Assembly: GCF_014189505.1 (NCBI RefSeq)
Contig: NZ_CP050301.1
Location: 2,549,501 to 2,613,500, forward strand
Source: Phyllobacterium sp. 628
GTDB lineage: Bacteria > Pseudomonadota > Alphaproteobacteria > Rhizobiales > Rhizobiaceae
Length of the DNA: 64,000 bases
Reading direction: 5' to 3'
Below are positions 3,159 to 12,013 of the stretch, one piece after another. The notes below the pieces were generated by a model. It saw only the letters and a list, made by a program, of their open reading frames with translations, was not told the DNA's origin and did no database searches. Position 1 is the stretch's first letter; every line of letters begins with the position of its first letter. A program made the position numbers and the translations under genes.

Positions 3159-3815
3159 ATGCGACTGCTGCTTGTTGAAGACGATATGATGCTTGGCTCT
3201 TCACTGAAGAAGGCGCTGGAGAAGCATGCCTATGGCGTTGACTGGATGCAGGACGGTGAATCCGGGCTGGCTGCGCTGCAGGATTCAAGTTTTGCCGTGG
3301 TTATTCTTGACGTCAACCTGCCAAAGATGAGTGGTCTTGAGGTGCTCAAAGCCGCGCGACGCGACAAGAACCTTGTTCCCATTCTGCTGCTGACGGCACG
3401 CGATACGCCCTTGCACAAGGTGGAAGGTCTGGACAGCGGCGCCGATGACTATCTCGTCAAACCGTTCGATCTGGATGAATTGCTGGCGCGGTTGCGCGCA
3501 TTGGTCCGTCGGCGCGAAGGCCGTATTGACACCATTCTGCGCTGCTCCGATGTGGAAGTGGATCCGGCTGCCAAGGTGGTGCGGAAAGCTTCAACACAGG
3601 TCATGATGACCGCAAAGGAGTTCCAGCTTCTGAAGCTTCTGATGGAGCGCGCGGGCAAATATGTCACCAAAAGCGACATCGAATATGCGCTTTATAGCGC
3701 CGAAAGCGCTGTCGAGAGCAACACGACCGAGGTCACGATCTATAACCTGCGTAAGAAACTTGGCAGTGATTTCATCAAATCCATCCGTGGTGTGGGTTAT
3801 ATGGTGGACGCATGA
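3159..3815 (+). CDS. OmpR/PmrA-type response regulator
   Basis: 218 residues. The receiver domain has the acidic pair D8/D9, phosphoacceptor D51 (VVILDVNLP), T79 and K101 (DYLVKPFD); a winged-helix DNA-binding domain follows (about residues 125-218, ending KSIRGVGYMVDA). It overlaps the sensor kinase gene by 4 bases (ATGA), so the pair is co-translated. Within the family it is most like the QseB/PmrA/TctD branch, which often controls envelope or lipid genes. The eight-gene operon that begins 123 bases beyond the kinase is the obvious candidate target, but this is inference. Confidence 0.9.
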   Translation: MRLLLVEDDMMLGSSLKKALEKHAYGVDWMQDGESGLAALQDSSFAVVILDVNLPKMSGLEVLKAARRDKNLVPILLLTARDTPLHKVEGLDSGADDYLVKPFDLDELLARLRALVRRREGRIDTILRCSDVEVDPAAKVVRKASTQVMMTAKEFQLLKLLMERAGKYVTKSDIEYALYSAESAVESNTTEVTIYNLRKKLGSDFIKSIRGVGYMVDA

Positions 3816-5189
3816 GCAGGCCCACCCTTACCCGGAAACTGTTCTTTCGCATTACACCGACAATCCTTGTCACCATGGCCGTTATCGGCGGCTTCGCCTT
3901 CAACAGCGCCACGCGCGAAATCAACAATGTCTATGACGCCCAGCTGATCAACGATGCCAATGTGCTCTGGGTTCTGCTCAACAAGCAGTTTAACGATGAT
4001 AATGGCGGGCCCGCCACGCAGATCGGTGACATCGATTTCAGCATGGGCAATCAGCTCGCACTGAATGAAGACGCGGATGACTATGCCGATGCGCATATGT
4101 TCCGTGCCTGGAAGGACAACAAGATCGTTCTGTTTTCCGGATCAACATTTCCGGCGGAAATTCCTTTGCAGAAAGCAGGATTCACAACAGTTCGCTATGA
4201 CAGTGAACATTGGCGCATCTACTCTCTTCCCATTCCAGACACGCACATCGTCATTGAAGTGGCCGAGAAAGTGGCCATGCGCGAAACGCTTGTGTCCAAT
4301 ATTCTGCTGAATCTCATTTTCCCGCTGCTTATCCTTATTCCCCTGATCAGTCTATTGATCTGGTTCGGCATTAATAGCGGCCTCAGCACGATCCATATGC
4401 TCGTGCAGCAAATCCGCAGCCGGTCGCCCGATGATTTGTCCGCCATTCCGGTCGGTACCCTGCCAAGAGACCTGTCGCCGCTGGGCCGCTCGATCAATCA
4501 GCTTCTGGAAAATCTCGACGATCTCGCTGAAAGCCGAGCGCCGTTTTGCTGATCACGCGGCTCACCAGTTGCGGACACCGCAAGCTGCCCTGAAGCTTCT
4601 GTTGCAGATGCTGGCGCAAGCGGACAGTGAGAAAGAACGCCAGTCAATCATCAATGATCTGGTCATCAGCAATGAAAAGGCGACCTATCTCATCGAGCAA
4701 TTACTGCGTGCTGCGCGTGTTAGTCATCAGCCCATGCAGCTACAGCCCGTTGCCCTCTACAGTACTGTGGCATCCGTTGTAGCCGAAATGGGAAACCTCG
4801 TGACGGCCAAACAGCTCGATATGTCGCTTGAGGGCGACGAGAAAGCAGAAGTGCGGGCAGATGAGCCATTGCTGCGCCTGATGACCAGCAATCTCATTGA
4901 AAACGCGGTCAAATACACACCATCCGGCGGACGTATTCGTGTTGCGATCACGCTTGCCAACAATTTCTGGCGCCTGTCTATTTCCGATAGCGGGCCAGGC
5001 ATCGCAGAACATCACCGGGAAGCGGTGTTTCAGCGATTCTACCGCATTGATACGCCGCAGATTGAGGGTACCGGTCTCGGGTTGACGATCGTGGCTGATA
5101 TTATCAAACGTCTGTCGGGCAGCATTGCTCTCAAGTCCCCCGCATCCGGCAACGGTTTGCTCGTAGAAGTACTTCTACCAAAAGCATAA
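3812..5189 (+). pseudogene. Sensor histidine kinase, interrupted by a 1-base frameshift
   Basis: The first frame (3812-4552) encodes TM1 (about residues 12-30), a periplasmic sensor region, TM2 (about 163-188) and a HAMP-like segment, and stops soon after LDDLAES. The kinase continues in the next frame up to 5189 with the H-box (FADHAAHQLRTP, phospho-His in HQLRTP), N-box (NLIENAVKYTP), G1 (DSGPGIAE) and G2 (GTGLGLTIV). Reading one A fewer in the AAA at 4530-4532 joins the frames as LAEAERRFADH, so an A insertion is the simplest explanation. Both halves are otherwise intact and conserved, which fits a recent mutation or a base-calling error. If real, the sensor is split from its catalytic core. 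Confidence 0.85.
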
Positions 5190-5312: not shown

Positions 5313-5996
5313 ATGCATGTTTTTTGTGATTTCGACGGGACCATTTCCCTCGAAGACGCCACAGATTTCATTCTTGAGCGATTGGCCAGCCCGAAATGGG
5401 AAGATATCGAACAGCAATGGAAGCAGGGTCTTATCGGCTCTGCGGAATGCATGTCGCGTCAGATTGCCCTGATTCAGGCCACCCGCCAGGAACTGGACAA
5501 TACGCTTGATGGCATTGCCATCGACCCGACCTTCCCTGCCTTCATCGATTTTTGCTGGGCGCAGGGCATTCCGGTCACCATTATCAGCGATGGCGTTGAT
5601 TATTTCATCAAGCGCATCCTCGCCCGGCACAATCTCGACTATCTGCCCGTTATCGCCAACAAACTGACGATCAGCGGTATCAATGGCCATACACGCTATG
5701 AATTGAGTTCGCCTTACAGCGATATCGATTGTTCGTCAGCCGCCGGTGTCTGCAAATGCCGGTCGGTCGAATCTTTCGATATGCGTGTTTATATCGGCGA
5801 CGGCCGCTCCGACTTCTGTGTTTCCGACAAGCCGGAGCTCGTCTTTGCCAAAGACAAGCTTGCCGAATTCTGCGCCGAACGGGCTATTCCGTTCGTCGGC
5901 TATCAGAATTTCTCCGACCTTACCCAAAGCCTGAAAAACGCGCTGCCTGATTTCAATCGCCGGCAACCGAGCGCTCCCCGCTACGCCACGGCGTAA
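5313..5996 (+). CDS. HAD-superfamily phosphatase, MtnX / phosphoserine-phosphatase-like
   Basis: 227 residues; first gene of the operon, with GAGGAG ahead of the ATG. HAD motif I is DFDGTI (nucleophile D6, acid D8), motif II is TIISDG, and motif IV is YIGDGRSDFCVS with the acidic pair. A cysteine-rich insert (CSSAAGVCKC, about residue 140-150) is the CxxC-type feature seen in MtnX-like (HAD-IB) members. The family removes phosphate from small molecules. MtnX itself acts in methionine salvage, but no salvage gene is nearby, so the substrate is more likely an intermediate of the pathway encoded by this operon. Confidence 0.82.
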   Translation: MHVFCDFDGTISLEDATDFILERLASPKWEDIEQQWKQGLIGSAECMSRQIALIQATRQELDNTLDGIAIDPTFPAFIDFCWAQGIPVTIISDGVDYFIKRILARHNLDYLPVIANKLTISGINGHTRYELSSPYSDIDCSSAAGVCKCRSVESFDMRVYIGDGRSDFCVSDKPELVFAKDKLAEFCAERAIPFVGYQNFSDLTQSLKNALPDFNRRQPSAPRYATA

Positions 5997-6019
5997 CAAA
6001 CCAACCAAAGAGAATCTTC

Positions 6020-7441
6020 ATGAAAACCAACCTTGCTATCCAGCAGAATGACAATGCGGCGTCGCAGCAGACGTCAGAAGCCGAGCTGCGTGCCCTTGAG
6101 CAGGAATACTGCTCGCATGGCGATACGGTTCACTACACCGACCATCCAATGTTTTTCGAGCGTTGCGAAGGCTCCTATGTTTACGATGCCGCAGACACGC
6201 CGTTCCTTGATCTGCAGATGTGGTACTCGGCCGTCAACTTCGGCTACCGCAACCCGCGTTTGAACGCTGCCGCACACCGTCAGCTGGACACCCTGCCCCA
6301 GGTTGCCTCGCAGTATCTGCACCGCGAGAAGGTCGAACTGGCTGCAATGATTGCCAAGGATGCCGAGCGCAAGTTTGGTGCCAAGGGCCGCGTGCATTTC
6401 AATGTCGGCGGTTCGCAGGCAGTCGAAGACTCTCTCAAACTGGTGCGTAACTATACTGGCGGCAAGAGCCTGATGTTTGCCTTCGAAGGCGGCTATCACG
6501 GCCGTACGCTCGGCGCCTCGGCCATCACATCCAGCTATCGTTATCGCCGCCGCTACGGCCATTTCGGCGACCGTGCCCAGTTTATCGAATTCCCCTATCA
6601 CTTCCGCGGCCCCAAGGGCATGAGCAAGGAAGAATACGGTCACTACTGCGTGCAGAAATTCGCACGCCTGTTCGAAAGCGAGTATAACGGCGTTTGGGAC
6701 CCAAAGACCGGCAAGGCTGAATACGCCGCGTTCTACGTCGAGCCAATTCAGGGCACAGGCGGCTATGTCATTCCACCAATGAACTTCTTCAAGGAATTGA
6801 AGAAGGTTCTGGATGACCACGGCATTCTGATGGTTGTCGACGAAATCCAGATGGGCGTTTACCGCACAGGCAAATTGTGGTCCATCGAACATTTTGGCGT
6901 AACGCCAGACGCGCTGGTCTTCGGCAAGGCCATCACCAATGGTCTGAACCCGCTCTCCGGTGTCTGGGCCAAGGAAGAAATGATCAATCCAGGCATTTTC
7001 CCGCCCGGTTCCACCCATTCCACGTTTGCCAGCAACCCGATGGGTACCGCGGTCGCGCTCGAAACCATGAAAATGCTCGAAGAAGAAGACTTCGGTGCCG
7101 CTGTTATGGAAAAAGGTGCCTATTTCCTCGACGGTCTGAAAGAATTGCAGAAGCGTCATCCCACCATCGGTGATGTTGATGGTCTTGGCCTCGCACTGCG
7201 TGTCGAGATCTGCAAGGAAGACGGCTATACGCCCGACAAAGCTACGCTCGACTGGATGGCCGATGAAGGCATGAAGGGCGACCTGCTGGTTGGCGCGAAG
7301 AAGTACGGCCTCGTGCTTGACGTGGGCGGCTACTACAAGAACGTCATTACCCTCGCTCCAAATCTCCTGATTACCCGCGAAGAAATCGATCTGGCGCTTA
7401 ACCTGCTTGATCAGCTGTTCGTTCGTGCAGCCAAGAGATAA
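6020..7441 (+). CDS. PLP-dependent class III aminotransferase
   Basis: 473 residues, near the usual length for the family. It has the phosphate-binding GGSQAVEDS (about 130-138), the EGGYHGRT loop, the PLP-ring aspartate in VVDEIQMGVYRTG (D274) and the Schiff-base lysine in FGKAITNG (K303). The fold type matches ornithine, GABA, diaminobutyrate and other omega-amino transaminases, so it likely interconverts an aldehyde and a primary amine. It begins 23 bases after the phosphatase and ends 4 bases before the next start. The substrate cannot be assigned; in context it probably supplies or trims the amine part of the product. Confidence 0.85.
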   Translation: MKTNLAIQQNDNAASQQTSEAELRALEQEYCSHGDTVHYTDHPMFFERCEGSYVYDAADTPFLDLQMWYSAVNFGYRNPRLNAAAHRQLDTLPQVASQYLHREKVELAAMIAKDAERKFGAKGRVHFNVGGSQAVEDSLKLVRNYTGGKSLMFAFEGGYHGRTLGASAITSSYRYRRRYGHFGDRAQFIEFPYHFRGPKGMSKEEYGHYCVQKFARLFESEYNGVWDPKTGKAEYAAFYVEPIQGTGGYVIPPMNFFKELKKVLDDHGILMVVDEIQMGVYRTGKLWSIEHFGVTPDALVFGKAITNGLNPLSGVWAKEEMINPGIFPPGSTHSTFASNPMGTAVALETMKMLEEEDFGAAVMEKGAYFLDGLKELQKRHPTIGDVDGLGLALRVEICKEDGYTPDKATLDWMADEGMKGDLLVGAKKYGLVLDVGGYYKNVITLAPNLLITREEIDLALNLLDQLFVRAAKR

Positions 7442-7445
7442 TCGG

Positions 7446-8399
7446 ATGCAACTCCTCCTTCTTCACCTTGATGATGCGCTGGAGTTGCAACCAGACTTCG
7501 TGCGCGCCTGTATGCGAACAGGCGCGCGCCAGATCTGTGCAGAAGATCATGGCCGTGCCGTGCGTCTCTGGGGCAATCAGCAATCCCTGGACAAGCTGAG
7601 CAACTGCCTTACCCGGCATATTGTCGGCAAGGGCAAGACACCGCATTTGTCGTTTATGGGATCCGGTGATTTCCATCATATAACGGCGCTTCTGGTTGCA
7701 GCGGCGCTGGGGAACAATCCGGAACCCGCCACACTCATCCATTTTGATAACCATCCGGACTGGGTGCATTTCAACAACGGCATGCATTGCGGCTCGTGGA
7801 TAAACCGCGCTTTGCAGCATCGCAGTCTCGAAAAAATCGTGACTGTCGGTGTTTGCAGCAGCGATCTGAAAAGCCCGGAGCGCAAAGGCGCCAACCTGTC
7901 CCTGCTGGCTTCAGGACGGCTCGAACTTTACCCCTATGAACATGCGCCGAGCCGGGTTCGCAAGGAATATGGTCAGGGCGCCAGCTACGAACAGAAAGAC
8001 GGTGCGCTGAACTGGAAAACAATTGCTGAAGTCGGTGAGCAGAATTTCATCGACCAACTCTTGTCACGCATCAAAACCAAAGCCGTCTATCTGACAATCG
8101 ACAAAGATGTCCTTGCCCGTGAAGATGCCGTTACCAATTGGGATCAGGGCAGAATGCGCCTCCCCTATGTGCTGTCACTGATCACCGAGATCAGCAAACG
8201 TCATCAGATCATTGGTGCTGACGTGACTGGGGACTATTCAATCCCGTCCTATACGGGAAATCTCTGGACACGGTTCACCAAGAACGCGGAAATCCTCATT
8301 GATCAGCCGCATTCAAGGCCTGATCCGCGCAAAACAACCAACATCAACAGTTCCGCCAATCATGCATTGCTCGAAGTTCTGTCTGAGGCAATGGCATGA
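7446..8399 (+). CDS. Arginase-fold (ureohydrolase/UPF0489-like) protein
   Basis: 317 residues from the ATG at 7446; an in-frame extension to 7407 would overlap the aminotransferase and is not favoured. It keeps the metal-site pattern of the arginase/agmatinase superfamily: GDFHH (74-78), DNHPD (101-105, matching DxHxD) and IDKD (218-221, matching the later DxD). The rest differs from true arginases, and it falls with the poorly studied UPF0489 type. A di-metal hydrolase acting on a guanidino, formimino or amide group is plausible but unproven. It overlaps the next gene by 4 bases (ATGA). Confidence 0.7.
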   Translation: MQLLLLHLDDALELQPDFVRACMRTGARQICAEDHGRAVRLWGNQQSLDKLSNCLTRHIVGKGKTPHLSFMGSGDFHHITALLVAAALGNNPEPATLIHFDNHPDWVHFNNGMHCGSWINRALQHRSLEKIVTVGVCSSDLKSPERKGANLSLLASGRLELYPYEHAPSRVRKEYGQGASYEQKDGALNWKTIAEVGEQNFIDQLLSRIKTKAVYLTIDKDVLAREDAVTNWDQGRMRLPYVLSLITEISKRHQIIGADVTGDYSIPSYTGNLWTRFTKNAEILIDQPHSRPDPRKTTNINSSANHALLEVLSEAMA

Positions 8400-8764
8400 C
8401 CGAAACTCTCATGACTGGCACCCTCACCGGCCCAATGCTGGCTCTCATCGCTTTCTGCGTTTTGACGGAAACAGCGCGCGAAGTCTGTTTCAAACATTCT
8501 GCCGACGATGAGACTTTGATGGCCGCGCTTGTCAAACCGATGACATGGCTCGGCGTTATCTTCTGGGGAATGGAACTCGTCGGCTGGACGATCGTACTGG
8601 AACATGTCCCGCTTTCCATCGCTTTTCCGCTGATGGCCTTGAGCTATGTCGTCATCGTGCTCGCTGGAGCATGGATATTCAGAGAAAAAATCAATCTTCG
8701 CCACGCAGCCGGCGTGCTGTTCATCACCGCCGGCGTGGCTTGTGTAGGAGCAACAGGATTATGA
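8396..8764 (+). CDS. SMR/EamA-type four-helix membrane transporter (first of two)
   Basis: 122 residues with four predicted membrane helices, the size of the small multidrug resistance family. The pattern EHVPLSIAFPLMALSYVVIVLAGAWIF resembles helices 2-3 of EmrE/SugE/ArnE-like proteins. A glutamate in the first helix (LTETAREV) fits the position of the proton-coupled or lipid-head acidic residue. It is translationally coupled to both neighbours. ArnE/ArnF-like proteins of this size flip amine-modified lipid carriers, so with the second SMR gene at 11597 it may form a heteromeric exporter or flippase for the product. Confidence 0.75.
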   Translation: MTETLMTGTLTGPMLALIAFCVLTETAREVCFKHSADDETLMAALVKPMTWLGVIFWGMELVGWTIVLEHVPLSIAFPLMALSYVVIVLAGAWIFREKINLRHAAGVLFITAGVACVGATGL

Positions 8765-9636
8765 AGCTTTTCGCTCATACAAGGTGGGACATTGCGCCCG
8801 TACTGGCAGCAATCGCGCACCTTCTTTTCAACGTATACCTCGTCGTCGGCTTTGAAAGCCGCCCGCTATGGCTTTCGGTCGTGCTTGGCTCACTTTATGC
8901 TGTTTCCATTTCCTGGAACATCAACAGCATCTCGCACAACTTCATCCATACACCCTATTTCAAGCAGCGCTGGATGAACTATGCGTTCAGCTTAATTGAA
9001 TCCATCACCATCGGTTTTTCCCAAACTTACTATCAGTGGATTCATATGCGCCATCATTCCGGCAACAGTGACCGCCCGAATGAAAAGGGTGAAACCATTG
9101 ACTGGCTGTCAATCTATCGTCACGGCAAGAATGGCGAGCCGGAAAATGTCTGGTCCTACACGTTTGTAAGTTTTTTCCGGGACAATCTCGGCGACATTCA
9201 CAAGGCCATTGCCAAAAACCGCCCGTTCGACGCCAAATGGGGACGTTTCGAACTCTATGCATTCTTGGCCGTAGCCGCCCTTGGCTTCCTCTACGATTGG
9301 AAGGCCATGCTGTTCTTCGTTCCCTTCTATTATCTGGGAAACTGCCTGTCCTCGCTGAACGGCTATTACGAACATCTGCATGGTGATCCCGAGGAACCCA
9401 TTGCGTGGGGCGTCAGCAGCCACAATGCATTCTACAACTGGCTATGGTTTGGCAACGGTTATCACGCCGAACATCACTATCGCCCCAAAACCCATTGGAC
9501 GAAGCTGCGGACCTTCCACGAGCAGATCAAGGAAGAGCAGGATAAAGCTGGCGTACACGTCATCAGCACGTGCCACGCGCTTGGTTTCATGGCCAAGGAA
9601 AATCGTGAATTGGATATCATCGATGCAGATGTCTGA
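8761..9636 (+). CDS. Integral-membrane fatty acid desaturase / hydroxylase family protein
   Basis: 291 residues from the ATG at 8761, which overlaps the SMR stop by 4 bases; an upstream extension in frame lies inside the SMR gene and is rejected. All three di-iron histidine boxes are visible: HNFIH (59-63), HMRHH (95-99) and HAEHH (235-239), plus several hydrophobic helices. The family uses O2 to put a double bond or hydroxyl into an acyl chain or related lipid. Its place between a transporter and an acyl-handling enzyme points to a lipid part in the pathway. It overlaps the next gene by 14 bases. Confidence 0.85.
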   Translation: MKLFAHTRWDIAPVLAAIAHLLFNVYLVVGFESRPLWLSVVLGSLYAVSISWNINSISHNFIHTPYFKQRWMNYAFSLIESITIGFSQTYYQWIHMRHHSGNSDRPNEKGETIDWLSIYRHGKNGEPENVWSYTFVSFFRDNLGDIHKAIAKNRPFDAKWGRFELYAFLAVAALGFLYDWKAMLFFVPFYYLGNCLSSLNGYYEHLHGDPEEPIAWGVSSHNAFYNWLWFGNGYHAEHHYRPKTHWTKLRTFHEQIKEEQDKAGVHVISTCHALGFMAKENRELDIIDADV

Positions 9637-10441
9637 TGGATTGAGCTATTTCCTTGAAGGCTCAAATGGCAAAGGCGTGCTGCTCATTCACGGTTTGACG
9701 GGTGCGCCGGCCGAAATGAAGATGTTGGCACGGCAGCTGAATCGCAAAGGTTACAGCGTCTACGCACCGCTGCTCGCCGGACATGGCGTCGATAAAGCCA
9801 CGCTGGTGCGCAGCCGCTGGCAGGATTGGCTTGAAAGCGTGGAACAGGCCACGCAAAAGTTCGCGCCTTATACGGATCAGACATTCGCCGCCGGAATTTG
9901 TATTGGCGGCAAATTGTCGATGATGGCGGCCCACCGGAACCCGCAGAGCCTCAAAGCAGTGGCGATCTATTCGCCCTGCTTCCATTATGATGGCTGGAAT
10001 GTGCCTTTTTATTACTGGCTGCTTTCGCCGTTCATTGAATTGCTGTCGTACATTCCTCCGGTCGCCCGTTTGAGCTTCGATGAAACCTCGGCACTCGGCA
10101 TCAAAGACGAGCGCATCCGGCGCATGATGGAAAGCATGGAAGCGGAAGGCATTATCGATCAGTTTCCCGGCAAAGGTATTGTCGAGATGTACCGGCTGGG
10201 CAAGGAGGTCAAAAAGAACCTGCCGCACATGCGCACGCCGACGCTGATCCTGCATGCGACAGAAGACGATTTGAGCAGCCCCAACCATGCCCGCTACATC
10301 AGCCGTCATATTGGCGCGCCGCATGAGTTAAAATGGATCGAAGACAGCTATCACATGATCCATGTCGACCGGCAACGTCAGAAGGTCGGCGATTATACAG
10401 CTGAATTTTTTGAGGCAAACAATGCTCCAGCCTATGCATGA
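9623..10441 (+). CDS. Alpha/beta-hydrolase with cysteine nucleophile (lysophospholipase / acyltransferase-like)
   Basis: 272 residues from the ATG at 9623 (a second ATG is at 9629). It has the oxyanion motif LLIHGLTG (20-27), the nucleophile elbow GICIGG (91-96), a likely acid at D215/D216 (HATEDDLSS) and H244 (EDSYHMIH). The elbow normally reads GxSxG; here codon 9899-9901 is TGT, giving Cys93. Cys in this place is known in PHA synthases and dienelactone hydrolases, and can favour acyl transfer over hydrolysis. The gene overlaps the next by 20 bases. It may handle the desaturated acyl chain made by its neighbour. Confidence 0.82.
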   Translation: MQMSDGLSYFLEGSNGKGVLLIHGLTGAPAEMKMLARQLNRKGYSVYAPLLAGHGVDKATLVRSRWQDWLESVEQATQKFAPYTDQTFAAGICIGGKLSMMAAHRNPQSLKAVAIYSPCFHYDGWNVPFYYWLLSPFIELLSYIPPVARLSFDETSALGIKDERIRRMMESMEAEGIIDQFPGKGIVEMYRLGKEVKKNLPHMRTPTLILHATEDDLSSPNHARYISRHIGAPHELKWIEDSYHMIHVDRQRQKVGDYTAEFFEANNAPAYA

Positions 10442-11600
10442 TCACGCTTTGCAGTTCGCTCCAGTTTCGTCAAAGCTGAGCGCAGTAGCGCAGACGCGCG
10501 TGTTTGAATCGATCCGCGACATCGGCAGCGAAGCATGGAATGCGTGTTTTGCCGATGAGGTGGAAGACTACGATTGCCTGCTCGCCATTGAAGACGCAGG
10601 AATTGCCGGTTTTGCATTCCGCTATGTCACCGTGGTTGAAAATGGCCGATTGCTCGCCGCTATGCCTGCATTTCTCACGGACTATCAGCTTGATACGACA
10701 CTGGAGGAAGGCCGCTTACGGCAAATCCTTCGTCGGATAAGACAGCACTTTACGCGGTTTTTAACGCTCAAACTGGCATGCCTTGGCTCGCCCTGCACCG
10801 AAAATGGCGTTGCCGGTTTTCATCCATCCGTGCTTGAGCGGCGCAAGAGCGATCTGTTTTCCCTGCTGCTCTCAGGTTTCGAACACTATGCCAGGACCAA
10901 TGGCTGTTCACTGATTGGCATCAAGGATGTACCGGAGCCTGTGACGAAAACCTTTGAAGCTGTTTTTAACAGCCGCGCTTTCGCTGGTATTCCCGGCCTG
11001 CCGACAGCCTGGCTCAATGTAGATTTTGACTCCATCGATACCTATATGGCCCGCTTATCTTCCGGTACACGCAAGGATATGCGCCGGAAAATGAAGTCCT
11101 TTGACCACGTCCGGATCGAAAACAAAGCCGATTTCGGTGATTTGTTGCCGCAGGTCATGGCGCTGTATCATGATACGCGCAACCGCAGCGAATGGCAGTT
11201 CGAAGAGCTGACGCCGGAATATTTTGCCGGTATTCTGCGGCAGATGCACGGGCGGTCTTTTTGCACATTTTATTATGTCGGCGACCAGTTGCTTGCCTGC
11301 AATCTGCTTGTGCACAATGAGAACACGCTGATCGACAAATTCTTTTGCATGAACAGTGCCGAAGGCCGTGCCCACAATCTGTACTATCTGAGCTGGTTCA
11401 CCAACCTGCGCCATTGCCTCGAACAGGGGATGACACGCTATCAAAGCGGGCAGGCCTATTATGAGAACAAGATCCGTCTCGGCAGTCAGCTCACCCGCAA
11501 TACGATGTATTTCAAACACCGTAACCCGGTCGTCCAATGGGCGTTGCGCCTTGCCTCGCCGCTGTTTGCTGCAGACGAGACCCTGAAGGACGCGTCATGA
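10422..11600 (+). CDS. FemAB / GNAT-fold acyltransferase-like protein
   Basis: 392 residues from the ATG at 10422, inside the end of the hydrolase gene. The C-terminal half (about 215-370) has the pattern of the COG3146/BioF2-like double-GNAT proteins: RLSSGTRKDMRRKMK, then FYYVGDQLLACNLLV, NTLIDKFFCMN, and YQSGQAYYENKIRLGS. Members transfer acyl or aminoacyl groups to amines in cell wall, lipid or siderophore pathways. In this operon it is the best candidate for making an amide bond between the amine and the fatty chain. It overlaps the following SMR gene by 4 bases. Confidence 0.75.
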   Translation: MLQPMHDHALQFAPVSSKLSAVAQTRVFESIRDIGSEAWNACFADEVEDYDCLLAIEDAGIAGFAFRYVTVVENGRLLAAMPAFLTDYQLDTTLEEGRLRQILRRIRQHFTRFLTLKLACLGSPCTENGVAGFHPSVLERRKSDLFSLLLSGFEHYARTNGCSLIGIKDVPEPVTKTFEAVFNSRAFAGIPGLPTAWLNVDFDSIDTYMARLSSGTRKDMRRKMKSFDHVRIENKADFGDLLPQVMALYHDTRNRSEWQFEELTPEYFAGILRQMHGRSFCTFYYVGDQLLACNLLVHNENTLIDKFFCMNSAEGRAHNLYYLSWFTNLRHCLEQGMTRYQSGQAYYENKIRLGSQLTRNTMYFKHRNPVVQWALRLASPLFAADETLKDAS

Positions 11601-12013
11601 AACCGCTCAATCTCGTCTGGTTCGCGATACCCATTCTGAACACGCTGTTTCAGGTCTTCATCAAACTGGCCGCAGAACAGATGACCGGACTTGGTTTTGA
11701 TATGGCATGGCTTATTCATGCCGCCACCTCGCCGTGGATGCTCGCCGCCATTGCGGCTGAAGCCGTCTGTTTCGTCTTTTGGCTGCAGGCGTTGGCTGAG
11801 CTTGACCTGAGCAAGGCATTTCCCCTGACGGGTATCAGCTATGTCATGATCCTCGCGACCAGCTGGATTATCTTCAAGGAAGACATCTCACTGTTACAGG
11901 TTATTGGCAGCACGTTGATTCTGATAGGCGTCTGGCTGATCGGAACGGCATCGGGTGAACAAAAGGCGGTTGAACCGCACCTGCCCCGTGCATTGCCCCA
12001 CAAATTATCCTGA
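11597..12013 (+). CDS. SMR/EamA-type four-helix membrane transporter (second of two)
   Basis: 138 residues with four predicted helices and a short polar tail. It resembles the first SMR gene in the helix 2-3 region (ELDLSKAFPLTGISYVMILATSWIIFKE compared with HVPLSIAFPLMALSYVVIVLAGAWIFRE). Paired, unequal SMR genes often form heterodimers, as in EbrAB or ArnEF. It starts in the ATGA overlap with the acyltransferase gene and closes the operon. Confidence 0.75.
   Translation: MKPLNLVWFAIPILNTLFQVFIKLAAEQMTGLGFDMAWLIHAATSPWMLAAIAAEAVCFVFWLQALAELDLSKAFPLTGISYVMILATSWIIFKEDISLLQVIGSTLILIGVWLIGTASGEQKAVEPHLPRALPHKLS

Follow-up and report, generated by a model that had tools for sequence, protein, structure and literature searches.

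An eight-gene operon of Phyllobacterium and its relatives as a candidate route to an amine-bearing membrane lipid

What could a phosphatase, a class III aminotransferase, an arginase-fold enzyme, a desaturase, an α/β hydrolase, a FemAB-like transferase, and two small transporters make together? The question is raised by eight genes of Phyllobacterium sp. 628 at positions 5313 to 12013 of the window, that is, the whole 64,000-nucleotide stretch of contig NZ_CP050301.1 (positions 2,549,501 to 2,613,500) that was analyzed. Our preferred answer, to which we give a probability of about 0.4, is that the operon makes and flips an amine-bearing (probably cationic) membrane lipid and is controlled by a two-component system of PmrA-like type. 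What is directly observed is a conserved and mostly overlapping unit, intact catalytic motifs, and folds that can be named; we class the whole with envelope-lipid modifications that include a flippase, here put together from enzymes of unusual branches. Plant-associated rhizobia and other Pseudomonadota probably have an envelope lipid (or export an amine) that has escaped notice. The initial annotation could name no pathway with this gene set, and none of the titles and abstract openings listed by searches of the open-access literature (for one search, 20 of 367 papers) gave a description of the set or a known product for it (the parts of PMC3557214 and PMC6683767 that were available make no mention of the operon); subscription papers lie outside that scope, so this is no proof of novelty.

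Layout and conservation of the unit

The eight open reading frames (ORFs) lie head to tail on a single strand (+), and five of their seven joints overlap; in order, the joints measure +23, +4, -4, -4, -14, -20, and -4 bases, gaps being positive and overlaps negative. Pfam and NCBIfam scans assign the first gene, HAD (5313..5996), to the MtnX-like HAD-IB phosphatases (PF12710; TIGR01489 at 103.5 bits, exceeding the cut-off of 81.55) and the second, AT3 (6020..7441), the best-conserved gene in the set, to the class III enzymes that use pyridoxal phosphate (PLP; PF00202, Aminotran_3, 261 bits). They are followed by ARG (7446..8399), a ureohydrolase-fold metalloenzyme; SMR1 (8396..8764), a half-size EamA/SMR protein nearest ArnE; DES (8761..9636), an accessory membrane di-iron desaturase of the fatty-acid type (PF00487, FA_desaturase, 102.9 bits); ABH (9623..10441), an α/β hydrolase with a Cys nucleophile in a GxCxGG motif (PF12146, Hydrolase_4, 91.2 bits); FEM (10422..11600), a FemAB-like tandem-GNAT transferase (PF04339, FemAB_like, and PF13480, Acetyltransf_6); and SMR2 (11597..12013), a second half-size EamA/SMR protein, paralogous to SMR1 and nearest ArnF. 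All ORF positions and joint lengths of the initial annotation are reproduced, and Pfam agrees with each of its eight protein classes, SMR1 falling just under the EamA cut-off (27.2 vs 28.2 bits). No gene of the eight reaches the curated cut-off of an equivalog among the families listed, which for AT3 were the best 25 of 69, and a pathway name therefore does not follow for the set. The flanking genes agree with those of four Phyllobacterium loci (L014-L017).

The comparison set consisted of the best 80 of 206 stretches encoding a relative, and all operon genes were mapped on these 80 loci. ARG is matched in 80 of them, HAD and AT3 in 79 each, ABH and FEM in 77 each, SMR1 in 76, SMR2 in 75, and DES in 71. 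The exact eight-gene order with no recognized gene in between is found in 65 loci, or in 67 if one insertion is allowed (L055, L081). DES alone is missing from seven otherwise complete loci (L073, L077, L079, and L082-L085, including Brucella haematophila and an Ochrobactrum), and the core of the operon is thus seven genes with the desaturase optional. The remaining six comprise two contig fragments (L030, L086), three loci of divergent order (L089, with the SMR pair on the opposite strand, and L091 and L093, where 20 kb contain nothing that matches either SMR gene), and L088, discussed below. Overlaps, whose counts depend on rule-chosen start codons, recur at ARG-SMR1 in 75/75 loci, SMR1-DES in 67/67, DES-ABH in 68/70, ABH-FEM in 72/77, and FEM-SMR2 in 68/71, and a spacing of at most 30 bases is kept between HAD and AT3 in 74/79 loci and between AT3 and ARG in 75/78. 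Conserved order and joints support the earlier view that the eight genes work as one unit.

The surroundings of the unit are also partly conserved. A cyclopropane-fatty-acid synthase gene directly follows SMR2 in 47/80 loci, stands between DES and ABH in L081, and lies upstream of the unit in four Phyllobacterium loci; the one such synthase scanned, from Rhizobium CIAT894, is CPFASynBruc-like (595.9 bits vs a cut-off of 600). MipA/OmpV is matched in 63/80 loci. One Agrobacterium plasmid locus continues into the gene of a DevC-like exporter (60.2 bits against a cut-off of 290) and TolC, and another into MipA, a phosphoethanolamine-lipid A transferase (EptA), and a diacylglycerol kinase (DgkA).

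An ARG match occurs in 13 of the 99 related genomes searched, a total that counts the own genome, and is weak in two of the 13. The phylum sample comprised 398 genomes, taken as the same for both searches from equal totals and shared handles; in it, AT3 is found in 25 (E up to 1e-150) and ARG in 16 (Xanthomonas protein as query, 1e-20), and all 16 ARG genomes fall among the 25 AT3 genomes. The hypergeometric probability of this co-occurrence, not corrected for relatedness, is 2e-21 by genome and 6e-12 by genus, own excluded in both. Plasmid records with ARG number 47 and those with FEM 48. That unrelated genes are adjacent here by chance is practically out of the question: nothing was found in its favor, and the conserved order, the overlaps, and the 16/16 ARG/AT3 co-occurrence refute it.

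A check of gene order had been proposed with the initial annotation, and the order proves to be kept within Hyphomicrobiales; other classes of the phylum have the genes in rearranged form. The core of AT3, HAD, ARG, FEM, ABH, and the SMR pair recurs in other Pseudomonadota, rearranged and at times incomplete. Twenty of 24 distant AT3 loci were fetched at length, the high-GC ones being read by tblastn with known proteins; HAD is present in 17 of the 20, ABH in 18, FEM and ARG in 12 each, DegT in 8, and a β-ketoacyl synthase (KAS) plus acyl carrier protein (ACP) in 5. The order in Xanthomonas sacchari is HAD, AT3, KAS, ACP, FEM, ARG, DegT, two EamA genes, and ABH, then HlyD/ABC/TolC. The core versions of this species, L132/L169, L133, and L142-144 have KAS and ACP of their own, a sign of acyl chemistry. 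In 12/12 Xanthomonas-type loci read (L095, L096, L098, L133-137, L139, L146, L168, and L169), FEM adjoins ARG, and the two steps, being encoded by direct neighbors, which in L168 are accompanied by the two EamA genes only, seem to belong together; the operon of the window and of its close relatives has ARG ahead of FEM, with SMR1, DES, and ABH between them. In Roseomonas mucosa and Aureimonas, a glutamate-semialdehyde-mutase-like class III enzyme replaces AT3, together with HAD, ARG, ABH, FEM, and two small transporter genes. An alphaproteobacterium of a different taxonomic order (L203, G725:C1:53000-72900) combines this version with a desaturase 51% identical to DES.

Folds and active sites of the encoded proteins

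FEM was examined through an AlphaFold model (pLDDT 87.1, pTM 0.83) and an alignment of 26 sequences (the window plus 25 of 37 diverse picks). The best VIA rows are FemX, FemA, Sbb17/Sba18, and Weissella FemX at Z 19.7-21.7, and the eleven best are all aminoacyl-tRNA-dependent; MprF/PGS domains follow at Z 17.3-19.1. With Foldseek, the first three matches are again Sbb17/Sba18 and the fourth is a tandem GNAT of the clavulanate pathway. The initial annotation had taken FEM for an acyltransferase: its FemAB/GNAT-like character is confirmed, but the fold is nearer to FemX/MprF transferases than to a simple acyltransferase, and because of this FemX/MprF-like fold FEM may attach an amino acid instead of, or besides, a fatty acid. 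Lys350 is kept in 26/26 sequences, and its motif K-x-x-[LF]-G in 72/77 near and 16/17 distant members (L127, with K-L-R-M-G, left out). This C-terminal Lys before [FL]-G may correspond to FemX K305, as judged by eye only, and the motif is seen also in the MprF of the host (AFKDKFGP), likewise equated by eye. Sequence profiles link FEM to no solved structure. Membership of FEM in the MprF or FemAB sequence families was considered and rejected, as neither PF09924 nor PF02388 was found in it; in its own genome, PF02388 has no match and PF09924 matches one separate gene only.

ARG belongs to the ureohydrolases by profile (PF00491, 46.4 bits vs a gathering score of 22) and, judging from 26 aligned sequences (the window plus 25 of 29 diverse picks), has the metal ligands expected of a functional enzyme of this kind. 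Within the motifs GGDH, DxHxD, and DxD, the last taken from the alignment, H77, D101, H103, D219, and D221 are present in 26/26 and D105 in 25/26. The AlphaFold model (pLDDT 93.9) superposes on arginases, guanidinases, proclavaminate amidinohydrolase, and agmatinase at Z 22-24 and rmsd 2.6-3.0 over 235-251 residues. An acidic residue (D/E) stands at position 263 in 79/79 near and 17/17 distant members, the equivalence being read by eye from printed alignments. According to PMC10028609, Glu277 is the guanidinium-binding residue of arginase, and the peptide arginase OspR converts peptide-bound Arg to Orn despite a Ser at that place and without almost all of the residues with which human arginase binds the carboxyl and alpha-amino groups of ornithine. 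OspR shares with ARG the ureohydrolase fold and six corresponding metal ligands, and since it acts on bound arginine, arginase folds can do so (PMC10028609); the two differ in family, OspR being pfam12640 and ARG PF00491. Membership of ARG in the peptide arginases was rejected, since only PF00491 and no pfam12640 matched at E up to 0.1, and GSGDFHH and TIDKDVL take the place of the peptide-arginase motifs EEH(N/H)EAF and LDIDLDYFSC.

The other catalytic motifs are intact as well. Motif counts refer to loci whose frame could be extended stop-free on the + strand (ARG 79, AT3 79, HAD 79, ABH 77, FEM 77, and DES 70 of 80). HAD keeps DFDGT and GDGxSD in 77/79 relatives each; AT3, a class III aminotransferase by membership, keeps the PLP-lysine motif FGK in 79/79; and DES keeps HNFIH/HNFLH and HxRHH in 70/70 and HxEHHY in 67/70. 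The Cys nucleophile claimed earlier for ABH is present (AGICIGG) and kept in 77/77 near members, and Ser is found in 21/23 distant ones. SMR2 passes the EamA and Multi_Drug_Res cut-offs. The curated ArnE and ArnF scores are not reached (SMR1 51.9 of 92 bits, SMR2 53.1 of 99), and these half-transporters are nonetheless the nearest to the pair, consistent with its earlier description as an export or flip unit.

Proposed route and competing explanations

In the route that we propose, a PLP step by AT3 followed by phosphate removal by HAD would give a small amino-alcohol or amine, which FEM would couple to an amino acid delivered as aminoacyl-tRNA or else to an acyl chain. On the intermediate, ARG may hydrolyze a guanidino or amidine group and so expose a primary amine; ABH, as a putative Cys/Ser acyl-enzyme hydrolase, could transfer or edit the acyl chain (ester or thioester); DES, with a dedicated cyclopropane synthase at many loci, would tune the tail; and SMR1/SMR2 would flip the product, as ArnE/ArnF flip undecaprenyl-phosphate-Ara4N, the two-component system setting the level of the operon. 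The amine-lipid scheme of the initial annotation survives in part, namely the single unit, whose order is conserved, the SMR pair, and tail tuning, to which the cyclopropane synthase after SMR2 now adds; it has to be revised for the seven-gene core, the fold of FEM, and the absence of an Arg from AT3.

Several known systems are similar in part. MprF/LpiA also joins a tandem-GNAT synthase step to a lipid flippase step, and FEM matches its synthase domains; however, the operon has these steps in separate genes, FEM lies outside PF09924, the flippase is an SMR pair rather than the MprF membrane domain, PLP, phosphatase, arginase, and desaturase steps are added, and the host has a true MprF besides. 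With ArnE/ArnF and the Arn/PmrAB system the operon shares the half-size SMR pair, a PmrA-like regulator, and, in distant versions, a DegT aminotransferase, but it scores below all curated cut-offs and has no glycosyltransferase among its eight genes, and no gene named ArnA, ArnC, ArnD, or ArnT occurs among the annotated neighbors of the loci read. Sbb17/Sba18, of streptothricin-type antibiotics, are among the best solved folds for FEM, yet they are only 13-15% identical to it, and the eight genes include none for an antibiotic scaffold. In the ornithine-lipid pathway (OlsB/OlsA), N-acylation of an amino head group is combined with O-acylation, an aminolipid logic similar to that of the operon; the difference is that ABH reaches 13.7 bits against the curated score of 385 for the O-acyltransferase OlsI and that the family scans named none of the eight OlsB or OlsA.

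Two doubts weigh most: FEM may draw on aminoacyl-tRNA or on acyl thioesters, and the product may stay in the membrane as a lipid or be exported as a metabolite. On the first, the same lipid could be made with FEM as a plain N-acyltransferase using acyl-CoA or acyl-ACP as donor, like bacterial ceramide synthase; ARG would then act beforehand, like an agmatinase, to make a diamine head group. We consider this rather unlikely, in view of the eleven tRNA-dependent folds at the top of the FEM comparison (Z 19.7-21.7) and of the FEM-ARG adjacency in the 12 Xanthomonas-type loci, which suggests, without showing, that ARG acts on the product of FEM. It gains from the KAS and ACP of six distant loci, from the desaturase and cyclopropane synthase, from CoA-dependent tandem GNAT and N-myristoyltransferase folds at Z 16-18, from an ARG fold that fits agmatinase, guanidinopropionase, and proclavaminate amidinohydrolase about equally, and from the position of ARG ahead of FEM, separated by SMR1, DES, and ABH, in the window and close relatives. 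At the opposite end, FEM may load a lipid precursor, on its amine or hydroxyl, with Arg taken from Arg-tRNA; ARG would then strip off urea, and the SMR pair would flip the resulting ornithyl lipid (or a similar diamino lipid) outward. This specific version we hold to be quite improbable; if true, it would mean a tRNA-dependent, arginase-edited lipid, unlike MprF lysyl-PG (lysyl-phosphatidylglycerol) or OlsB ornithine lipids, across many Pseudomonadota. More generally, if FEM and ARG act in sequence, cationic lipids would be made by aminoacylation and then arginase editing, and functions would fall to three groups that annotation has left roleless: a branch of PF04339, a branch of the arginase fold, and an EamA pair.

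On the second doubt, a secreted natural product (an antibiotic, a toxin-like amine, or a signal), with the SMR pair and nearby ABC/TolC pumps serving export and self-protection, would account for the aminotransferases, KAS, ACP, DegT, and HlyD/ABC/TolC of the Xanthomonas version, for the patchy distribution with its 47 plasmid records, and for top FEM folds (Sbb17/Sba18, aminoacyl-tRNA-dependent GNATs) that were solved with the antibiotic precursor streptothrisamine. It is unlikely all the same: the order is strongly kept in Rhizobium and Phyllobacterium, desaturase, cyclopropane synthase, and MipA suit an envelope lipid, and the annotated neighbors of the loci read include no assembly-line synthase. 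Arginase-fold enzymes and class III aminotransferases are common in polyamine breakdown, MdtIJ exports spermidine, and SMR2 weakly matches MdtJ (23.4 bits) and MdtI (15.3 bits), all of which would suit an operon that breaks down or detoxifies polyamines or phospholipid head groups and whose SMR pair exports the amine. Such a route has no place for the desaturase, the FemX-fold transferase, or KAS/ACP, and the eight genes include neither an uptake system nor a dehydrogenase, which makes it very unlikely. A rhizobitoxine-like or serinol route (AT3 and a phosphatase acting on dihydroxyacetone phosphate) was considered and set aside, as no specific evidence was found.

The membrane-lipid reading that we prefer draws on lipid-type surroundings (the cyclopropane synthase, MipA/OmpV, DevC-like/TolC on one plasmid, and EptA with DgkA at one locus), and a series of observations weighs against it. 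EptA and DgkA are near 0/80 loci and DevC and TolC near 1/80, so that these four neighbors are not general. The fold of FEM is shared at slightly lower scores by CoA-dependent GNATs (clavulanate GNAT, Z 17.1; MAB_4324, 17.9) and N-myristoyltransferases (Z 16.0-16.6); by sequence it falls only into PF04339/PF13480 at E up to 0.1, not into MprF or FemAB, and hhalign against 23 MprF domains (a profile of 23 frames from 25 loci) is not significant (P 0.2). The host has a separate MprF/LpiA synthase domain (G000:C1:3030105-3030947), and the operon is therefore not a substitute for MprF. ARG has Gly at the position of arginase Glu277, with the acid one residue on. Arg398 of Escherichia coli GabT holds the glutamate carboxylate; its equivalent in AT3, read by eye from printed alignments, is Thr in 79/79 near and 24/24 distant members, so routine glutamate-dependent transamination is not assured, and glutamate may not be the normal partner of AT3. 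SMR pairs export polyamines and drugs too.

Further points on the same side come from incomplete sets. ARG stands alone, without the other seven genes, in L088, and likewise (49%) in 19 kb of genome G087 (L097), which is outside the listed matches of the phylum sample. Three loci (L142-144) carry only ACP-KAS-HAD-AT3-ABH with no FEM, ARG, or SMR nearby, and in their genus ARG is found in 0/4 genomes and FEM only as weak relatives elsewhere in three (27-29% identity). L138 (7301-11209) has HAD, AT3, ABH, and the SMR pair in a genome with no FEM or ARG match, L130 has HAD, AT3, ABH, and FEM with ARG absent in 20 kb, and Bartonella loci have AT3-FEM-ARG only (HY038, the rest being absent in the stretch read). 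Since L142-144, L138, L130, and L168 carry the parts separately, HAD-AT3-ABH and FEM-ARG behave as two modules, either of which the SMR pair can accompany.

The upstream two-component system and other observations

Upstream of the unit on the + strand lies a response regulator of the OmpR family (3159..3815; PF00072 and PF00486), PmrA/QseB-like, with PmrA as the best match (208.7 bits against a curated score of 330) and QseB at 204.6 bits, also below cut-off. It is followed by a split sensor histidine kinase gene (3812..5189, +; ORFs 3812-4552 and 4431-5189) with a 2CSK_N domain and a kinase part nearest PnpS, PhoR, and PmrB, below their cut-offs. The regulator is matched in 75/80 loci. That a two-component system just upstream might control the operon had been suggested earlier, and the system is indeed conserved and travels with the operon, but its kinase gene is broken in this window by a one-base frameshift, whereas it is a single frame in 76/76 testable relatives (4/80 not testable). 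The frameshift reflects either genuine damage to the gene or an error in the assembly.

Some loci deserve mention in their own right. The set of L138 adjoins HlyD/ABC/FtsX/OEP exporter genes and is a reduced form worth studying, and genome G331 has FEM-ARG-EamA-EamA on C22 (L168) and HAD-AT3-ABH with a second FEM on C52 (L130). On a plasmid of Bartonella sp. HY038 (L099, 11956-17971), AT3-FEM-ARG faces AlgX-like and MBOAT genes, recalling surface O-acylation systems. On a plasmid of Nostoc sp. C052 (L149, 6659-17417), a remote relative of FEM (26.6%, covering 47% of the query) has as neighbors a desaturase, a class III aminotransferase, a nitric oxide synthase oxygenase, and a DevBCA-type exporter. 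In L145 (9412-11732), a sulfotransferase-family gene follows a 54%-identical AT3, perhaps another use of the PLP enzyme.

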